Source of the DNA: Stygiobacter sp. RIFOXYC2_FULL_38_25
Lineage (GTDB): Bacteria; Bacteroidota; Ignavibacteria; Ignavibacteriales; Melioribacteraceae
Length of the DNA: 64,000 bases
Direction: 5' to 3'
Assembly (NCBI GenBank): GCA_001803165.1
Contig: MHAZ01000004.1
Coordinates: 124,001-188,000, forward strand
Shown here: positions 7,060 to 45,383 of the stretch, piece after piece
Numbering within the stretch: position 1 is the stretch's first letter
Layout of the letters: every line of letters starts with the position of its first letter
Notes under the pieces: generated by a model
The model's input: the letters and a program-made list of their open reading frames with translations, nothing else
What the model was told of the DNA's origin: nothing
The model's database searches: none
Translations under genes and position numbers: made by a program

Positions 7060-7722
7060 TTATTTCGCTTGTGTTGTACTTTCTACGGGGAACAAGTTGA
7101 AGGGTTGTACCTTAAAATTATCATTGAAAAATGAAACTGTAAGAAAAATGTATGCGATGAATCCCAAAACAATTAGCAGTTGAACCAAGGATGTTTTTTG
7201 AATTGCTTGCCTGTCTTTTACTTCGCAAACTTCGCCGGGACAGTGTTGAGCTTTTTTTCTATATATAAGTGAATAAACTTTACACCCGATGCAAATACCA
7301 AACGCCGACTCAAAGAACAAAAATATGAGGCAGATAAAACAGATTAGCCCGGTTATTGGTCCGGATAGATTTAATATCACAAGATGAACCAACATTGTAC
7401 CCGCCAAAAGCACGCCGATTATCCAAGCGAACTTCTTTTGCTGAGCGCCAACATATTCCGGTGTTTGATTCCGGACAATTAAACGCCCAATTATTAATGA
7501 AGGAGAAAACTTAGGATTAATAAATACGCGTATTAGAATATCCGTAAGGAAGATTACAACAGCATATTTCAGCAATGTGAAATCCCCTCTGGATGCGGCA
7601 GCATTAATTGCAATGAACATCATGATAAATAGAATGCCCGCCGCGGCTCTTATTTCCCGTTCGTTCAGGACCGGAATGCTATAGCCTTCAACATCTTCCC
7701 CAAATTTGAATACTTTACTCAT
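7060..7722 (-). CDS. DUF4395 integral membrane protein
   Basis: The protein has 220 residues with several hydrophobic segments: a pair near residues 25-65, another pair near 100-140, and a last one near 180-200. The central sequence FGICIGCKVYSLIYR holds a CxxC pair, as in DUF4395 proteins, where such cysteines are thought to be redox active and the genes often sit near thioredoxin or sulfurtransferase genes. The start has a GGAG about 8 bases upstream. No sulfur gene is adjacent here, so the context gives no added support. Function unknown. Confidence 0.75.
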   Translation of the reverse strand: MSKVFKFGEDVEGYSIPVLNEREIRAAAGILFIMMFIAINAAASRGDFTLLKYAVVIFLTDILIRVFINPKFSPSLIIGRLIVRNQTPEYVGAQQKKFAWIIGVLLAGTMLVHLVILNLSGPITGLICFICLIFLFFESAFGICIGCKVYSLIYRKKAQHCPGEVCEVKDRQAIQKTSLVQLLIVLGFIAYIFLTVSFFNDNFKVQPFNLFPVESTTQAK

Positions 7723-8342: not shown

Positions 8343-10307
8343 TTATAAGAGAATTTTATTTATATAGTTAACGGCTGATTCAATTTCTTCTAAAGAAACA
8401 TTTTTCTCTAATACAAATTCTTTGTTTGGGAAAGAATAATATCCAATTTTTGGCAATTCGATAGCAGGGTAGGGTCTTACAGGGTAATATGTTTCTTTAT
8501 TTAATTCTTTTAAAAAATCAGTACAATTTATTTTTGTGCATTTATTATGATTTAATTCAGCTGTTTTTAGTAACAAGTTTACAAGCCTTTCAAAGATATC
8601 TGGATGACCAGCGAGCTTTAGTTCAACCAATATTCCCCACAAAACACTTAAGGGGTGTGGTATTGTGAATTTAGAAACACGTTCCATAGCATGAGCAAAA
8701 ACATGTCCATAACGTAAAATTCGTCCACCTTCAGTTTCCCATGGATGACGTGATAAAACATCTCCTTTGAATTCCAAAACTCTTTCAGCAACGCTAATAC
8801 ATTCGTTAATATTTGGATTCTTACTTAGAATTAATTCATAAGTCTTTGAAAAAAGATCAGAATCTTGTAACAAACCATGTTTTAAGCATTCAACAAGACC
8901 CAAGCGTTTATTTTCTGGATTAAGCGAATCCATGAAATTATGATCAATTAAAATTGCTGTTGGATCAGAATAAACACCAAGTGCATTTTTAAAATAATCG
9001 CCATCAAGAGTTTTATAATTTATGGAAGTTTTACTTCCAATTACTACATCTGACAATGCCGTAAGATTTGTTGGTACTACAATATAGGCGGCACTCCCAC
9101 GAAACAAAATGGAGGTTACAAATCCGCCAAAATTTAGTAATGCTCCTCCACCAACAGAAGCAATGACACCCAATTTATTTTTGCTATCAATGAAGTTAAG
9201 GATATTTTCTACAGCCGGGAATAAATTTTCGTGATTCTTTCCTTCTTCGCCACTAGGAACAATAATTACTTCTGGATTAGTACCAGAGATATCAATAAGA
9301 ATATTCTTTACATGATTGATTTCATCTTCATATGAACTAATAATATTTTCCGTAGTGATCATAAAAGATTGCCCGCTATACTTGTTATTTAAAATAAGTG
9401 GAGTTGGATAAGGATATTTATATATAGGTATAGTATCATGTTTTTTAGGTAATGCTAAATGTACACTAAAATGATTTTTGATTTTTGAAGAAGTAATTTT
9501 TCTGTTTTTTATTTTAAATTCTTTTTTAGGTTTCCAAAGTAGTTTTTCCTCCTTATTATGAGTAACAACAACAATTGATTTATTATGATTTTCTTCACAC
9601 CATCCTTTCAAATTAAATATAATTTTTTTTCTTGTATCGTTGTCGATATTGGCTAGTACTTCATCCAGAAACAGAATATTAATATTTCTATATAGTTGTG
9701 CTGAGATCAATCTTACAATCGCCTTTTGACCACTAGAAAGCTCCATTGGCAATTTTTCTGTAATGTCTGGATGTCCATAAGAATTGAGAAGTTCTAATAA
9801 ACTAGTTTCAACTTCTTTAGAAGGTAATTCTCTATATCTATATTCATATTTTTCAAGGTCAGGAGTGGAAATAAAACTGATTTTATTTCGAATCATAGTT
9901 AAAAACATTTCATTCCACAGCCGACCAATTAATTGATCAGATACAACTCTAATCTTTGGATTTGAATGGCGCATTAATATTTGTTCTCTTACAGTCATGG
10001 TTGGAACTAATGTCTCTTCTTGAAAAACGGCAACCATTCCATTATTTATTGCATCAATTACAGAATTGATCTTCTGAGGTTTTCCATTTATATAGGTGAG
10101 TGAGACAGATAATTCTTTATCGAAATTTGGAGGAAGTGCACCGACAAGCAATTTTATCAAAACGCTTTTACCAACTTGGTTGGGACCTTCAATAGAATAT
10201 ATACCCGGTTCCTCAATAAGAAACGTTTGTTCTTCAAATATAGCTTCCCTTTCTACATTTACATCATTAGGGGTTTTATATAAATTTATTTCTCTTTTAA
10301 GCACCAT
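8343..10307 (-). CDS. Fusion of an ABC-transporter ATPase domain with a dehydroquinate-synthase-like sugar-phosphate-cyclase domain
   Basis: The protein has 654 residues. Residues about 1-265 are an ABC ATPase with Walker A GPNQVGKS (41-48), Q-loop Q96, signature LSSGQ (190-194), Walker B ILFLDE (211-216) and H-loop H250. A lysine-rich linker follows. Residues about 295-654 match the fold and length of dehydroquinate synthase: GEEGK (353-357), VGGG (385-388), D420, SKTSIN with K426, K440-N441, metal Glu E473, K476, and metal His H535 and H551. All three predicted metal ligands are present, so the domain may be catalytic. The Asp after GGG in AroB is Asn392, and the residue three before H535 is Arg instead of the usual Asn, which suggests a substrate other than DAHP. 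Sugar importers of the RbsABC type normally carry two ABC domains in this protein; here the second is replaced. It is the third gene of the importer operon, 3 bases after the binding-protein gene. Confidence 0.9.
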   Translation of the reverse strand: MVLKREINLYKTPNDVNVEREAIFEEQTFLIEEPGIYSIEGPNQVGKSVLIKLLVGALPPNFDKELSVSLTYINGKPQKINSVIDAINNGMVAVFQEETLVPTMTVREQILMRHSNPKIRVVSDQLIGRLWNEMFLTMIRNKISFISTPDLEKYEYRYRELPSKEVETSLLELLNSYGHPDITEKLPMELSSGQKAIVRLISAQLYRNINILFLDEVLANIDNDTRKKIIFNLKGWCEENHNKSIVVVTHNKEEKLLWKPKKEFKIKNRKITSSKIKNHFSVHLALPKKHDTIPIYKYPYPTPLILNNKYSGQSFMITTENIISSYEDEINHVKNILIDISGTNPEVIIVPSGEEGKNHENLFPAVENILNFIDSKNKLGVIASVGGGALLNFGGFVTSILFRGSAAYIVVPTNLTALSDVVIGSKTSINYKTLDGDYFKNALGVYSDPTAILIDHNFMDSLNPENKRLGLVECLKHGLLQDSDLFSKTYELILSKNPNINECISVAERVLEFKGDVLSRHPWETEGGRILRYGHVFAHAMERVSKFTIPHPLSVLWGILVELKLAGHPDIFERLVNLLLKTAELNHNKCTKINCTDFLKELNKETYYPVRPYPAIELPKIGYYSFPNKEFVLEKNVSLEEIESAVNYINKILL

Positions 10308-10310
10308 ACT

Positions 10311-11297
10311 TCACCTAGTTTTTTTATAAGGAAGCACATCAATAAAAATATCATGTTGTACAGAATTCGCCTCAATTAAATCATCAACTATCTTTATTGC
10401 GATTTTACCCATACCTTCTGGATTTTGCTGCATTGTAGCAAACAATTCACCATCGTCAACATATTTTTTGGCGTCTTGAATTGCATCAAATCCAATTATT
10501 GGTAATGAAGACGGTTTTATTTTATGTTGTTTAAAAGCCTCAATCGCACCAATTGCCATTTGATCATTCGCAGCAAAAATTGCATCATATTTATTACCCA
10601 CTGAAAGAAGCGCATCAACAGTCTCCCGAGCTTTATTTCTTTCCCAGTCACATGTTCGTTCAGTCAATCTATAATTTTTTAATCCAGAATTTTTTAGACC
10701 CTCTATAAATCCCTGACGACGTAGTCCAGCTGTTTCGTGACCGTCCAGACCGTTCAATAATAATATGCTACAATCCTCTTTAAGGAATGGATATAATTCT
10801 TTCGCAGCTTTAATTGCACCACCCTTATTATCAGATGCAATAAATGAAGTAATATTTGTAGAGGCTTTTTTCAAGGCTTCTACAGAAATTGGTGTATCAA
10901 CAATTATAACAGGAATGTTTTTGTCACGATATTTTTTAATAACTGGAGTTAAAGCATCGCCAGAAGATGCTGGCGTCATAACGATAGCGATAATATTAGG
11001 GTCTTGTTTCCCTTCAACTTCCTCTAAAAAGAAACTCTCCAGTATCTGTCTTTGGCCATTAACATCACCCTCTGCACTTCCAGAACGAATGATTAATGAA
11101 TATTTATAAGGAGATTTTGTAGAAGCGAATTTGAACCCGTTTACCATTTCGTTGAAGTATGGATTATCCATTGTTTTGACTATACAAAGTACCTTTTTAT
11201 TCTGGTACTTATTATTAACATCAGTTTCTTTTTTATAACAACTTGACAAAAAGAAAAGAGCTAATAAAGCAATTAGAAAATATTGTTTAGTCATCAT
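10311..11297 (-). CDS. Periplasmic sugar-binding lipoprotein (RbsB-like) of an ABC importer
   Basis: The protein has 328 residues. It begins with a lipoprotein signal and lipobox LSSC (Cys20), so it should be anchored in a membrane. The mature part matches the type I periplasmic binding family of RbsB-like proteins: a first beta strand KVLCIVKTMDNPYFNEMVNGF, a middle segment VIIVDTPI, a hinge-region FAANDQMAIGAIEAF and a late IGFDAIQDAKKYVDDG. The family captures monosaccharides, polyols or autoinducer-2. The ligand here is not predictable. The 5' end overlaps the permease gene by 11 bases and the 3' end is 3 bases from the ATPase-cyclase gene, a tight operon. Confidence 0.9.
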   Translation of the reverse strand: MMTKQYFLIALLALFFLSSCYKKETDVNNKYQNKKVLCIVKTMDNPYFNEMVNGFKFASTKSPYKYSLIIRSGSAEGDVNGQRQILESFFLEEVEGKQDPNIIAIVMTPASSGDALTPVIKKYRDKNIPVIIVDTPISVEALKKASTNITSFIASDNKGGAIKAAKELYPFLKEDCSILLLNGLDGHETAGLRRQGFIEGLKNSGLKNYRLTERTCDWERNKARETVDALLSVGNKYDAIFAANDQMAIGAIEAFKQHKIKPSSLPIIGFDAIQDAKKYVDDGELFATMQQNPEGMGKIAIKIVDDLIEANSVQHDIFIDVLPYKKTR

Positions 11298-12321
11298 CTG
11301 TCTTCCTCTCTGTTAATATTGATTGAGTTTGTTGTGATAATTTTTTTCTAAATAGGAAAAGCATTATTAAAAGGAATAAAGAAAACACAATACTAGCACT
11401 TCGATTTTGATATTCTTGTGCAATTCCAGGAAGATTAACGGTTATTAGAATATTATTTGTTATTACCCAAAAACCAGCGGCTGAAAGAATTGACCATTGA
11501 TTAAAATAACCTCCGCTCATCATTGTTCCACCCAAAACTGCGATTGCAATACCAATTAATTCATCACCTTGATGCTCAACAGTTGTCGCTCCATTATTCG
11601 TAATTGTGAATAATATGCCGGCAATTCCGGAACAAAGTGCAGCAAAAGAATAAACTAATAAAATGATTTTTTTGACATTAATTCCAAGATATCTAGCTGT
11701 ATCAATATTAGCTCCAACAGCTTTTGATTTTGATGGTAAATTCAGCATGTTTAACATAAAAACTAAAAAGAATAGCGTTGTAAAAGAAAAAAGAATTATA
11801 GGAGAATCAAAACTCCATTCAACTGAATGAATTATTGATCCAAGTTCGACATCTTGATCTGTACCTTTAATTTTCTCAAAACTTGCAATAAATAGTGAGG
11901 TTGCTATTAGAATTACCCCTAAACTCCAGCTTGCAATTAATGGATTGACTTTTTGGTATACAAGTTTGCTGAGTAAACATCCAATTAAAATAGAAATGGA
12001 AAGTGGAAGTAATACTATGAAAATAATTGACGAACAATATTGAGAAATAGAGGCAAAAATAACACCAGTGATAGTCATAACCCCTGCAGAAGAAAGGTCA
12101 ACACCAGCTGTTGAGAGTACTAAACCAGCGCCAAGAGCTAGAAAAGATATTGGCAAAAAATTTTTGATTAACGAGAGAAGTAATTCTTCAATAATTTTCG
12201 CATTAATATTATCTAAAGTGATGATTCTCAATAAAAGACTAAAAAGGAATAAAGTTGGTGCAAACCAATAGATAGTTTTTCTACGAAGCATTTTCGATAA
12301 TAAGTCATTAATTACTTTCAT
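11287..12321 (-). CDS. RbsC-like ABC sugar importer permease
   Basis: The protein has 344 residues and about eight to ten hydrophobic helices. Typical features of the RbsC/AraH permease family are FLALGAGLVLSTAGVDLSSAG near residues 56-76, VGANIDTARYLGINVKKI in the cytoplasmic loop, and IGIAIAVLGGTMMSGG late in the protein. It is the first gene of the operon, with AGGGAA about 6 bases before its ATG, and overlaps the lipoprotein gene by 11 bases. It would form the membrane channel for the substrate delivered by the lipoprotein, powered by the ABC half of the fused third protein. This gene is visibly AT-rich. Confidence 0.9.
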   Translation of the reverse strand: MKVINDLLSKMLRRKTIYWFAPTLFLFSLLLRIITLDNINAKIIEELLLSLIKNFLPISFLALGAGLVLSTAGVDLSSAGVMTITGVIFASISQYCSSIIFIVLLPLSISILIGCLLSKLVYQKVNPLIASWSLGVILIATSLFIASFEKIKGTDQDVELGSIIHSVEWSFDSPIILFSFTTLFFLVFMLNMLNLPSKSKAVGANIDTARYLGINVKKIILLVYSFAALCSGIAGILFTITNNGATTVEHQGDELIGIAIAVLGGTMMSGGYFNQWSILSAAGFWVITNNILITVNLPGIAQEYQNRSASIVFSLFLLIMLFLFRKKLSQQTQSILTERKTDDD

Positions 12322-13227
12322 AATAATTCCCTAAAGATACTTTTACAATAAATTTTTTGCAGCTAACTATTAATATGAGCGAACAGATAAGCTGTCGTGG
12401 GTGCATATCTACCAGCCTTTATTTAGTTTATTTAGTGAAAACGCAAATTCTTGCGTGCTATTCCGCCAGCAAGCGGCGGACAAGTATTCACATCTATTTT
12501 TTATTTATTCTTAAGAAAATCTATTTGCAGAACAGTTTATTTCATAACTCATGCTTCAAAACTCAAAACTGCTTTTCCTGTTCCCCCGAAGTTGAATTGA
12601 ATGGAACGTTTAACTATTTGCAACATAGCCATACAAGTTTTGAGAATCAAGAAAGAAAAACTTGCGGTTCCCCCCTTTCAACCTCACCCCCACATAAAAC
12701 GTGGGGCAAGCCTAAATCCCCAATGCAGCTAGGTTAGTAGGTAAAAATATAATTGCACCGACCTTTAGGTCGGTGAACAAAAGGAAATCTTTGACGGCTT
12801 TAGCCACATTGGATGCGACTAAAGTCGAAAATCAATATTTTAATTCGTTGTGTGAATTAAAATTCAAAAGTACAAAAGGGTTCACAAGAATAAGTTTTTC
12901 GGGTTTGATGAATCAAACCCCTACAATTTTTTTGTAGGGGCTTCATTCATGAAGCCCGTTTTTTAGGTAAAGCGCCAACAAATCATCTATTAAATCTAAT
13001 TCACACAACTGGTTATTTTATATTTATTATACAACGAGCTGAAGCTCGTTGCAATTTTATTTACCTGACAGCATTGCCTAAATCCCTCTCCTTCCCTCGA
13101 CTCCGCTCGGGATGACGGAGAGGGACTTTTGAACCCTTCTCCTTACTAAGGAGAAGGTGCCCGAAGGCTTGTCCGCCTATGGCGGGGCGGATGAGGTGTC
13201 TTGTACAAATTAAAATATGTTTAAAAC

Positions 13228-13458
13228 GTAAAGACGCGCCGTGCGCGTCTCATTAAAAACAAGAGACAGATGCGATCCGTCTTTACAAAACTTTGCCGTC
13301 TCACGTAAAGACGCACCGAGTGCGTCTCATTAAAAACAAGAGACGGATGCGATCCGTCTCTACAAAACCTAGCCGCTTCACGTAAAGACGCACCGAGTGC
13401 GTCTCATTGAAACCAAGAGACGGATGCGATCCGTCTTTACAAAAGCTTGCTGTTTCAC
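13228..13458. repeat. Three tandem 77-bp repeat units with paired hairpins
   Basis: Units begin at 13228, 13305 and 13382, exactly 77 bases apart. Each is a 59-base palindromic block (start GTAAAGACGC, a GTGCGTCTCAT half, then AGACGGATGCGATCCGTCT and TAC) followed by an 18-base linker of the form AAAAxxTxGCxGTxTCAC. Units 2 and 3 are closest. The block is the same family as the repeats at 6988, 31678, 31804 and 54707. Confidence 0.9.
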
Positions 13459-13597
13459 TTCGAAACGAACATGAAAAATCTCCTACTGAGTTATCTTTCA
13501 AGATTTTACTTAGTCCGCAATCAGCATTCGCTTTCAGATTTCATATTCTAACACTCAGAACTGTTGCGCAGAAGCGTTTCCCTTCTTAGAAAACAAT

Positions 13598-44942: not shown

Positions 44943-45383
44943 TATTTAGTAATGAGTACTTAGTAGTTAGACAAAGATTAAAGATTATAGATGCACAATT
45001 ACAAAGAATTGAAAGTTTGGCATAAAGCAAGAGAGCTGGTTAAGTTCATATACATTTTGACTTCGGAATTTCCTAAAGAAAAGATTTATGGACTTACTTC
45101 TCAAATGAGAAGAGCGGTTATTTCATTCTCATCAAACATTGCCGAAGGATCAGGTTATGGAACGAATAAGCATTTCAATAGATTTTTAGAAATTTCTTAT
45201 TCATCGGCAAGCGAATTGGAAACACAAGTAATATTAGCATGCGATATAGGATTTATTGACGAAGTGAAATTGGCGGATGCATCGAATAGAATTTCAGAAA
45301 TTCAAAAGATGTTATCCGGTCTAATGAATTCATTAAATAATTGATTTTAGTCTAAATACACACTACTCAAGACTAAATACTAA
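44939..45383. repeat. Inverted repeats bracketing the four-helix-bundle gene
   Basis: TTAGTATTTAGT (44939-44950) and its perfect complement ACTAAATACTAA (45372-45383) flank the inserted gene. Similar sequences occur near 55105-55130 and 59470-59500. This marks the boundaries of an intervening element. Confidence 0.65.
44991..45344 (+). CDS. Four-helix-bundle protein (23S rRNA IVS-protein family) inside the nuo operon
   Basis: The protein has 117 residues with NYKELKVWHKARELV, TSQMRRAVISFSSNIAEGSGY and FLEISYSSASELETQVILA, the pattern of the four-helix-bundle family first found in 23S rRNA intervening sequences and related to the Avd protein of diversity-generating retroelements. It interrupts nuoC and nuoD, which normally adjoin. 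It is on the same strand, so it is likely read with the operon. No rRNA or reverse transcriptase gene is near. Function of the family is not settled. Confidence 0.85.
   Translation: MHNYKELKVWHKARELVKFIYILTSEFPKEKIYGLTSQMRRAVISFSSNIAEGSGYGTNKHFNRFLEISYSSASELETQVILACDIGFIDEVKLADASNRISEIQKMLSGLMNSLNN

Follow-up and report, generated by a model that had tools for sequence, protein, structure and literature searches.

An ABC ATPase and a putative sugar phosphate cyclase of a new subtype share one reading frame in a sugar importer operon of Stygiobacter sp.

In Stygiobacter sp. RIFOXYC2_FULL_38_25, one gene encodes a protein of 654 residues whose first half is an ABC ATPase and whose second half is a domain of the sugar phosphate cyclase (SPC) superfamily, akin to dehydroquinate synthase (DHQS, AroB). 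It lies in a stretch of 64,000 nucleotides, referred to here as the window. The open frame, the operon around it, the identity of the two domains, the cyclase fold, the conserved cyclase core and the loss of residues typical of DHQS are all seen directly, and they suggest that the uptake of a sugar and a ring-closing chemistry have been joined in one protein. We favor the reading, with a probability of roughly one half (0.52), that the ATPase is that of a CUT2-type aldose importer and that the fused cyclase is active, with an aldose phosphate as its substrate.

The fusion gene (8343..10307) is a single open frame on the minus strand, starting with the ATG at 10307 and ending with the stop at 8343. 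The preliminary description of this DNA had reported an unbroken frame of 654 codons without naming a strand; the frame is confirmed, and a gene on the plus strand over the same interval is ruled out by its many stops. Read from right to left, it is the last member of a tight three-gene operon. The first is a CUT2-type permease gene (11287..12321, minus strand, 344 aa; BPD_transp_2, PF02653, 59.6 bits for a cut-off of 26.8) and the second a gene for a sugar-binding lipoprotein (10311..11297, minus strand, 328 aa; PF13407, Peripla_BP_4, 167.4 bits for a cut-off of 35.1), in which a lipobox-like LSSC can be seen by eye near residue 20. With both matches above their cut-offs directly upstream, the importer context proposed earlier is well founded. 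The permease and lipoprotein genes overlap by 11 bases and only 3 bases separate the latter from the fusion gene; just 5′ of the fusion ATG, the sequence AAAAAAACTAGGTGAAGT contains the stop of the preceding gene and, by eye, an AGGTGA-like ribosome site.

The ABC ATPase domain comprises about residues 1-275 (9483..10307, minus strand) and the SPC domain about residues 278-654 (8346..9476, minus strand). Between codons 240 and 345, the sole ATG, GTG, TTG or CTG is ATG 316, which already lies within the cyclase domain, so that a complete cyclase started separately, from a codon between the halves, is unlikely. Terminator-like sites inside the fusion gene number one, against a mean of 2.4, and matches to sigma-70 promoters are at chance level (22, with a mean of 22.8 in shuffled sequences). 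The gene sits on a 205-kb contig of an assembly that is 99.82% complete.

Upstream of the permease gene, about 1.36 kb contain only a 126-codon ORF starting with TTG, followed by what appears by eye to be a der-like gene; downstream of the fusion, about 600 bases with no clear gene precede a DUF4395 gene. The operon holds importer genes only, with neither a kinase nor an enzyme for a cyclase product, which makes the importer the sole visible partner of the cyclase. At 13226-13470, in the region poor in genes that separates the operon from der, a 77-base unit built from hairpin-forming pieces (GTAAAGACGC..GCGTCTC and GAGACGGATGCGATCCGTCTTTAC) occurs three times in tandem and resembles a genomic interspersed palindromic repeat. 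Elsewhere in the window, a 117-aa ORF (44991-45344) lying between two genes of an apparent complex I operon resembles, by eye, the four-helix family of proteins encoded by 23S rRNA intervening sequences.

The ABC half matches PF00005 (ABC_tran) in one stretch, residues 29-217, with 45.4 bits for a cut-off of 25. It had been described as a complete single ABC ATPase, and every motif named then is in place: Walker A at 41-48 (GPNQVGKS), LSSGQ at 190-194, Walker B ending in D215-E216, and H250, to which Q96 can be added. When the domain is aligned to four ATPases encoded in this genome, G41, G46, K47, Q96, S191, G193, D215, E216 and H250 are invariant. An insertion of about 40 residues is found around positions 116-160. 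Residues 28-127 match the starts of NCBIfam profiles for CUT2 ATPases of about 500 residues (AraG, GguA, and the B6 and xylose transporters); further along, the matches are to general ABC ATPases, the best being the tungstate ATPase WtpC. These results argue for descent from a CUT2 ATPase, the second ABC domain being absent, with some doubt left by the later part of the domain. An AlphaFold model of this half alone, built from five rows, has low confidence (mean pLDDT 60.9) and resembles MalK (Z 20.6, 208 aligned residues, rmsd 2.4).

In turn, the earlier remark that CUT2 ATPases normally carry a second ABC domain agrees with the examples at hand, since two such domains are visible by eye in the ATPases of two relatives (L045, L046) and of a viral contig (L142), and the single PF00005 stretch sets the fusion apart from this typical layout. 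CUT2 ATPases with a single ABC domain do exist, FrcA being one of them. The likeness to CUT2 importers such as RbsABC and AlsABC extends to the PF02653 permease, the PF13407 binding protein of the allose/ribose type and the first 130 residues or so of the fusion, similar to AraG/GguA-type ATPases. The differences are that the cyclase stands at the place of the second ABC domain and that the genes follow another order (permease, binding protein, ATPase).

In the second half, residues 348-466 match PF01761 (DHQ_synthase; 66.6 bits, cut-off 24.2) and residues 470-578 match PF24621, the C-terminal domain of DHQ synthases (54.9 bits, cut-off 27.6). An AlphaFold model of the whole chain, based on an alignment of the fusion with 48 SPC relatives (49 rows in all), has a mean pLDDT of 64.9, with residues 311-654 mostly above 80. 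The preliminary description had assigned an AroB fold to residues 295-654. The modelled cyclase indeed adopts the two-domain fold of DHQS, its best match being 1xai (Z 35.9, 341 aligned residues, rmsd 2.7), followed by 2-deoxy-scyllo-inosose synthase (DOIS; Z 34.3) and the EEVS structure 4p53 (Z 31.2), with metal-dependent alcohol dehydrogenases near 24, a result that favors the original observation. The aligned ranges of the model start near residue 200, and the first cyclase strand is partly filled by residues of the ABC half; for this reason, the modelled arrangement of the two halves is not to be trusted. By its domains, its fold and its ligand positions, the cyclase half is a member of the SPC superfamily, for which cyclisation is the predicted activity.

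The residues expected of such an enzyme are largely present: the GGG motif at 386-388, R403, D420, K426, N441, K476, K514 and H539, together with E473, H535 and H551, which we take to be the metal ligands. Thirty reference cyclases were used for comparison, namely 13 DHQS, three TIGR04425-like proteins, seven viral proteins, four sedoheptulose 7-phosphate (S7P) cyclases, two DOIS and one other; the DOIS and S7P cyclases are annotated plasmid genes. Among the 24 columns conserved in at least 95% of these references, the fusion keeps 23, metal ligands included, the only loss being the glycine after the third metal ligand (P552 in the fusion), whereas in the other columns it agrees with the majority in 65 of 273. 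Such a difference is the reason why the core looks maintained.

This conservation has clear limits. Of 39 columns conserved in a set of bacterial SPCs, reduced from 44 rows to 36 distinct ones, the fusion keeps 30 and loses nine (D319, D392, D521, R528, N532, G552 and the DKK at 605-607), and of 45 columns conserved in the 48 relatives used for the whole-chain model it keeps 30 and loses 15. Five changed features, overlooked in the preliminary description, stand out: Asn392 replaces an Asp, Gly528 an Arg, Arg532 an Asn and Pro552 a Gly, and DKK is absent, its columns reading E605-T606-Y607. Asp392, Arg528, Asn532, Gly552 and DKK occur in all 36 bacterial SPCs and in all 80 rows (67 distinct) taken from at least 137 stretches of viral contigs, and none of them in the fusion. 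In known structures of DHQS, the positions of R528, N532 and DKK are part of the substrate site (R264, N268 and K356 in A. nidulans). R532 and P552 are unique to the fusion within the aligned set.

Where, then, does the domain belong? It had been called a full-length AroB-type domain, and this holds for the fold, the metal ligands and the three core lysines, but not for a DHQS-like identity: five features are changed, and the fusion scores 148.9 bits in the NCBIfam aroB family, for a cut-off of 305, and the separate AroB encoded elsewhere in the same genome reaches 359. Two DOIS and the one S7P cyclase that was scored also remain below this cut-off. With DHQS the fusion shares the fold, the NAD motif, E473/H535/H551, K426/K476/K514 and H539, and it differs in Asn392, Gly528, Arg532, Pro552 and the missing DKK; a paralogue of DHQS is ruled out by the aroB score and by the loss of the Arg, Asn and DKK of the substrate site. 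DOIS (2d2x, 2gru and two plasmid genes, L148 and L149) is alike in fold, in K514 and H539, in having Asn for Asp after the GGG motif, as also in the solved 2d2x, and in lacking Arg at position 528. It carries, however, a Glu at position 532, before [FY]GH, and a DNK, where the fusion has Arg and no DNK, and this assignment is ruled out against L148, L149 and 2d2x.

The S7P cyclases of the EEVS type (4p53; L146, L150-L152) resemble the fusion in lacking DKK, in being changed at 528 and 532, and in an Arg one place past the DHQS arginine. In all four, nevertheless, positions 514, 532 and 539 hold Met, Asp and Pro, where the fusion has Lys, Arg and His, and R532 and H539 rule out this type. Lastly, the AroB-related putative phospholyases of TIGR04425 (L007) share with the fusion a GSKTSxNYK stretch and an FKN motif; L007 scores 402.9 bits for a cut-off of 400 and keeps DKK and Asn, while the fusion, with 136.6 bits and neither of them, falls outside the family. 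In a tree of 31 rows the fusion has no clear placement: its branch, flagged by the program, measures 2.76 against a median of 0.79 and is joined to another long branch with support of 52/93.

An intact SPC core with a substrate site unlike that of any compared subtype argues for a new, non-DHQS subtype. The best reading of these alignments is that the cyclase half would be a competent SPC of such a subtype, probably acting on an aldose phosphate that stems from the sugar taken up.

The contigs of 84,980 species were scanned with a motif that allows Arg or Ser at position 532 and fixes the flanking residues. Six stretches were found, none with Arg: four are AroB genes, all with Ser, and the remaining two contain no ORF related to the fusion. 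The motif is strict, so that this result bounds the number of relatives and does not exclude them. The four genes (L055, L057, L059, L060) come from metagenome-assembled genomes of several phyla and show that Ser can stand for the DHQS Asn before [FY]GH. In viral contigs, the scan for Arg or Ser at 532 gave no stretch, and a scan for HP instead of HG gave 10, none of which contains an ORF related to the fusion.

Viral contigs are rich in cyclases of their own, with at least 137 stretches encoding AroB-like proteins, of which the 80 taken (L061-L140) can be described here. A DSC signature is present in 78 of these 80, and position 476 is split within the set, with His in 27 rows and Lys in 53, the latter as in the fusion. 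The sole viral cyclase scored with NCBIfam (L061) matches TIGR04425 better than aroB, below both cut-offs. Two others exceed the remaining viral rows in length (L074:1290-2660, 456 aa, and L139:2536-3948, 470 aa); residues 1-75 of the former weakly match a phage ATPase family and residues 1-32 a kinase family, a possible kinase-cyclase fusion.

The joining of ATPase and cyclase is a singleton in the collections searched. With the full protein as query, 1,898 overlapping genome-searches gave no second fusion; they covered its own genome, 39 relatives, 395 genomes from the phylum and 391 from the class (these three sets including the own genome), five genomes reached via individual loci, and 378, 346 and 343 genomes from three other phyla. 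The E-value limits were 1e-22 for the phylum, 1e-27 for the class and 1e-28 for the three other phyla, with three candidates scored per listed genome. Matches occur in 115 of the 395 phylum genomes and in eight of the 391 class genomes and, outside the gene itself, always concern the cyclase half. No match at 1e-28 was found in the three other phyla, whose sets hold no genome known to match, so that this empty result shows nothing alone. Among 72,556 plasmid records 168 match, and among 50,697 phage records 14, none covering 80% of the query. An exact-motif scan of the contigs of the 84,980 species returned 18 stretches, with no relative among them. Viral contigs scanned with the protein yielded no second fusion either; scans of them for ABC and for CUT2 ATPases gave five and two loci.

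A search for the same domain order had been proposed at the outset, and its outcome is that, among the matches listed, only the gene itself covers both domains. The accompanying remark that no described importer with such a cyclase was known to its author also agrees with a search of freely readable papers, in which no precedent for an SPC or DHQS fused with an ABC transporter was found. Since the collections searched gave no second fusion, the architecture cannot be shown to be conserved.

The best match within the genus (G003) is a TIGR04425 cyclase (L036:9483-10562) in a gene cluster resembling those for surface sugar synthesis, apparently of a surface polysaccharide, beside sugar nucleotide and NeuB-like genes. 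Four long SPC frames were also examined, and none shows an ABC domain by eye: one is an AroK-AroB-like fusion of 546 aa (L171), two are probable N-terminal over-extensions (L170, L172), and the last (L173:869-2233) is a cyclase with the motif DFGHWAAHKLE, followed by a TIM-barrel-like gene, which we take to be EboD-like and which represents another SPC subtype, one whose variable position is occupied by Asp.

Concerning the cargo, the best solved relative of the binding protein is 1gub, which binds D-allose (E 3.1e-27); ribose-type binding proteins rank lower. The alignment with 1gub retains a Lys, an Asn-Pro pair, an Asp, an Arg, a Trp, an Asn, an Asp and a Gln, several of them presumably in contact with the sugar, and on these grounds an aldopyranose is a likely cargo. 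For the permease, a search of solved structures at E 0.001 returned nothing. CUT2 importers carry unphosphorylated sugars and SPCs require a phosphate on their substrate, which in DOIS is an aldose 6-phosphate (glucose 6-phosphate). The cargo would thus have to meet a kinase before an SPC could act on it, a difficulty left aside in the preliminary description; two ROK and two FGGY kinase genes exist elsewhere in the genome, outside the operon.

As for the origin of these genes, their GC3 values (permease 0.197, binding protein 0.228, ABC half 0.200, cyclase half 0.195) make them the three lowest among the 35 ORFs of at least 200 aa in the window, where the median is 0.326. Codon-usage distance, which is only mildly raised, was set aside as a weak mark of transfer: two operon genes are among the three most distant ORFs and the fusion is seventh, the most distant being the ORF at 7060-7722. 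The operon permease is the sole PF02653 match in the 4.4-Mb genome, in a search whose control family was found in 12 of 14 named genomes. At E 1e-8, four of 58 genomes have a matching permease. One of the four is the own genome; in the others, identity is 26-36% along part or most of the permease, which adjoins an RbsA-like ATPase ORF, as judged by eye (those of L045 and L047 being cut by the end of the locus). With nothing above 36% identity in 57 relatives, an orthologous permease is ruled out there. The operon was probably acquired horizontally, and it is likely that its three genes were gained together as a block.

How could such a protein work? In the proposed scheme, the cyclase would occupy the place of the second ABC domain in a CUT2-type aldose importer ATPase, and two copies of the fusion would pair via both halves. 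The two ABC domains would drive a permease homodimer and, on its cytoplasmic side, the two cyclase domains would assemble into the dimer usual for cyclases. Once imported and phosphorylated by a kinase encoded elsewhere, the aldose could then undergo NAD- and metal-dependent oxidation, phosphate elimination and ring closure to a carbocyclic product, a chemistry modelled on that of DOIS acting on glucose 6-phosphate. Some benefit might come from coupling uptake to cyclisation. A bolder version, which we hold as tentative and on the doubtful side, is that of a transport-coupled cyclitol synthase, in which the new SPC subtype, working at the inner face of the permease, would convert the cargo, once phosphorylated, to a carbocycle, making uptake, ATP hydrolysis and ring formation one physical step.

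Several observations weigh against an active, cargo-using cyclase, the rarity of the fusion and a possible regulatory role being the chief doubts: the absence of a second fusion from the collections searched, the long branch and its lack of placement, the unique R532 and P552, the nine of 39 and 15 of 45 conserved columns lost, the absence of a kinase or product enzyme from the operon, and the low confidence with which the ABC half and the arrangement of the halves are modelled. Part of this evidence would suit a cyclase half turned into a non-catalytic regulatory domain, an on-off switch for the ATPase that would bind a sugar phosphate, a metal or NAD(H). C-terminal regulatory domains are well known on importer ATPases, such as that of MalK or the binding-protein-like domain of NrtC, and the cargo of CUT2 importers is not phosphorylated; the very long branch, the loss of residues conserved in all compared DHQS-like relatives and an operon devoid of kinase and product enzyme fit this explanation as well. 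Nevertheless, a sensor need not keep 23 of 24 core columns with all three metal ligands, and we consider this explanation less likely than an active cyclase, though a serious rival to it.

A further serious rival, in our estimation somewhat less probable still, is that both halves work and that only their expression and location are joined, with neither channelling nor control, the cyclase perhaps serving an unrelated cytoplasmic pathway. Fusions of SPCs with pathway partners do occur, as in the AroK-AroB-like ORF of L171 and in two AroK-AroB models of NCBIfam, and nothing in the operon connects a cargo that carries no phosphate with an enzyme that uses one; the fact that it consists of importer genes alone speaks against such independence. 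An artefact of assembly or sequencing, or a decaying relic joined by chance, might be evoked because a single genome among those searched carries the fusion. This is highly improbable in view of the open frame, the complete set of ABC motifs, the state of the cyclase core, the tight gene spacing with its ribosome-site-like sequence, the equal GC3 of the two halves, and the long contig and near completeness of the genome. The aldose importer with an active, aldose-phosphate-using cyclase is the reading that we retain.

Importer ATPases with regulatory tails are known; uptake would be tied to metabolism in a new manner if the motor of an importer shared its chain with a metabolic enzyme that seems intact. 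Moreover, the binding protein offers a direct route to the cargo and, through it, to the substrate of the enzyme. Non-DHQS members of the SPC superfamily lead, among other products, to aminoglycoside antibiotics. To this superfamily, whose non-DHQS enzymes are described in PMC4426668 as opening routes to antidiabetic drug, crop protectant and sunscreen compounds, the cyclase described here would add a subtype with substrate-site residues of its own.
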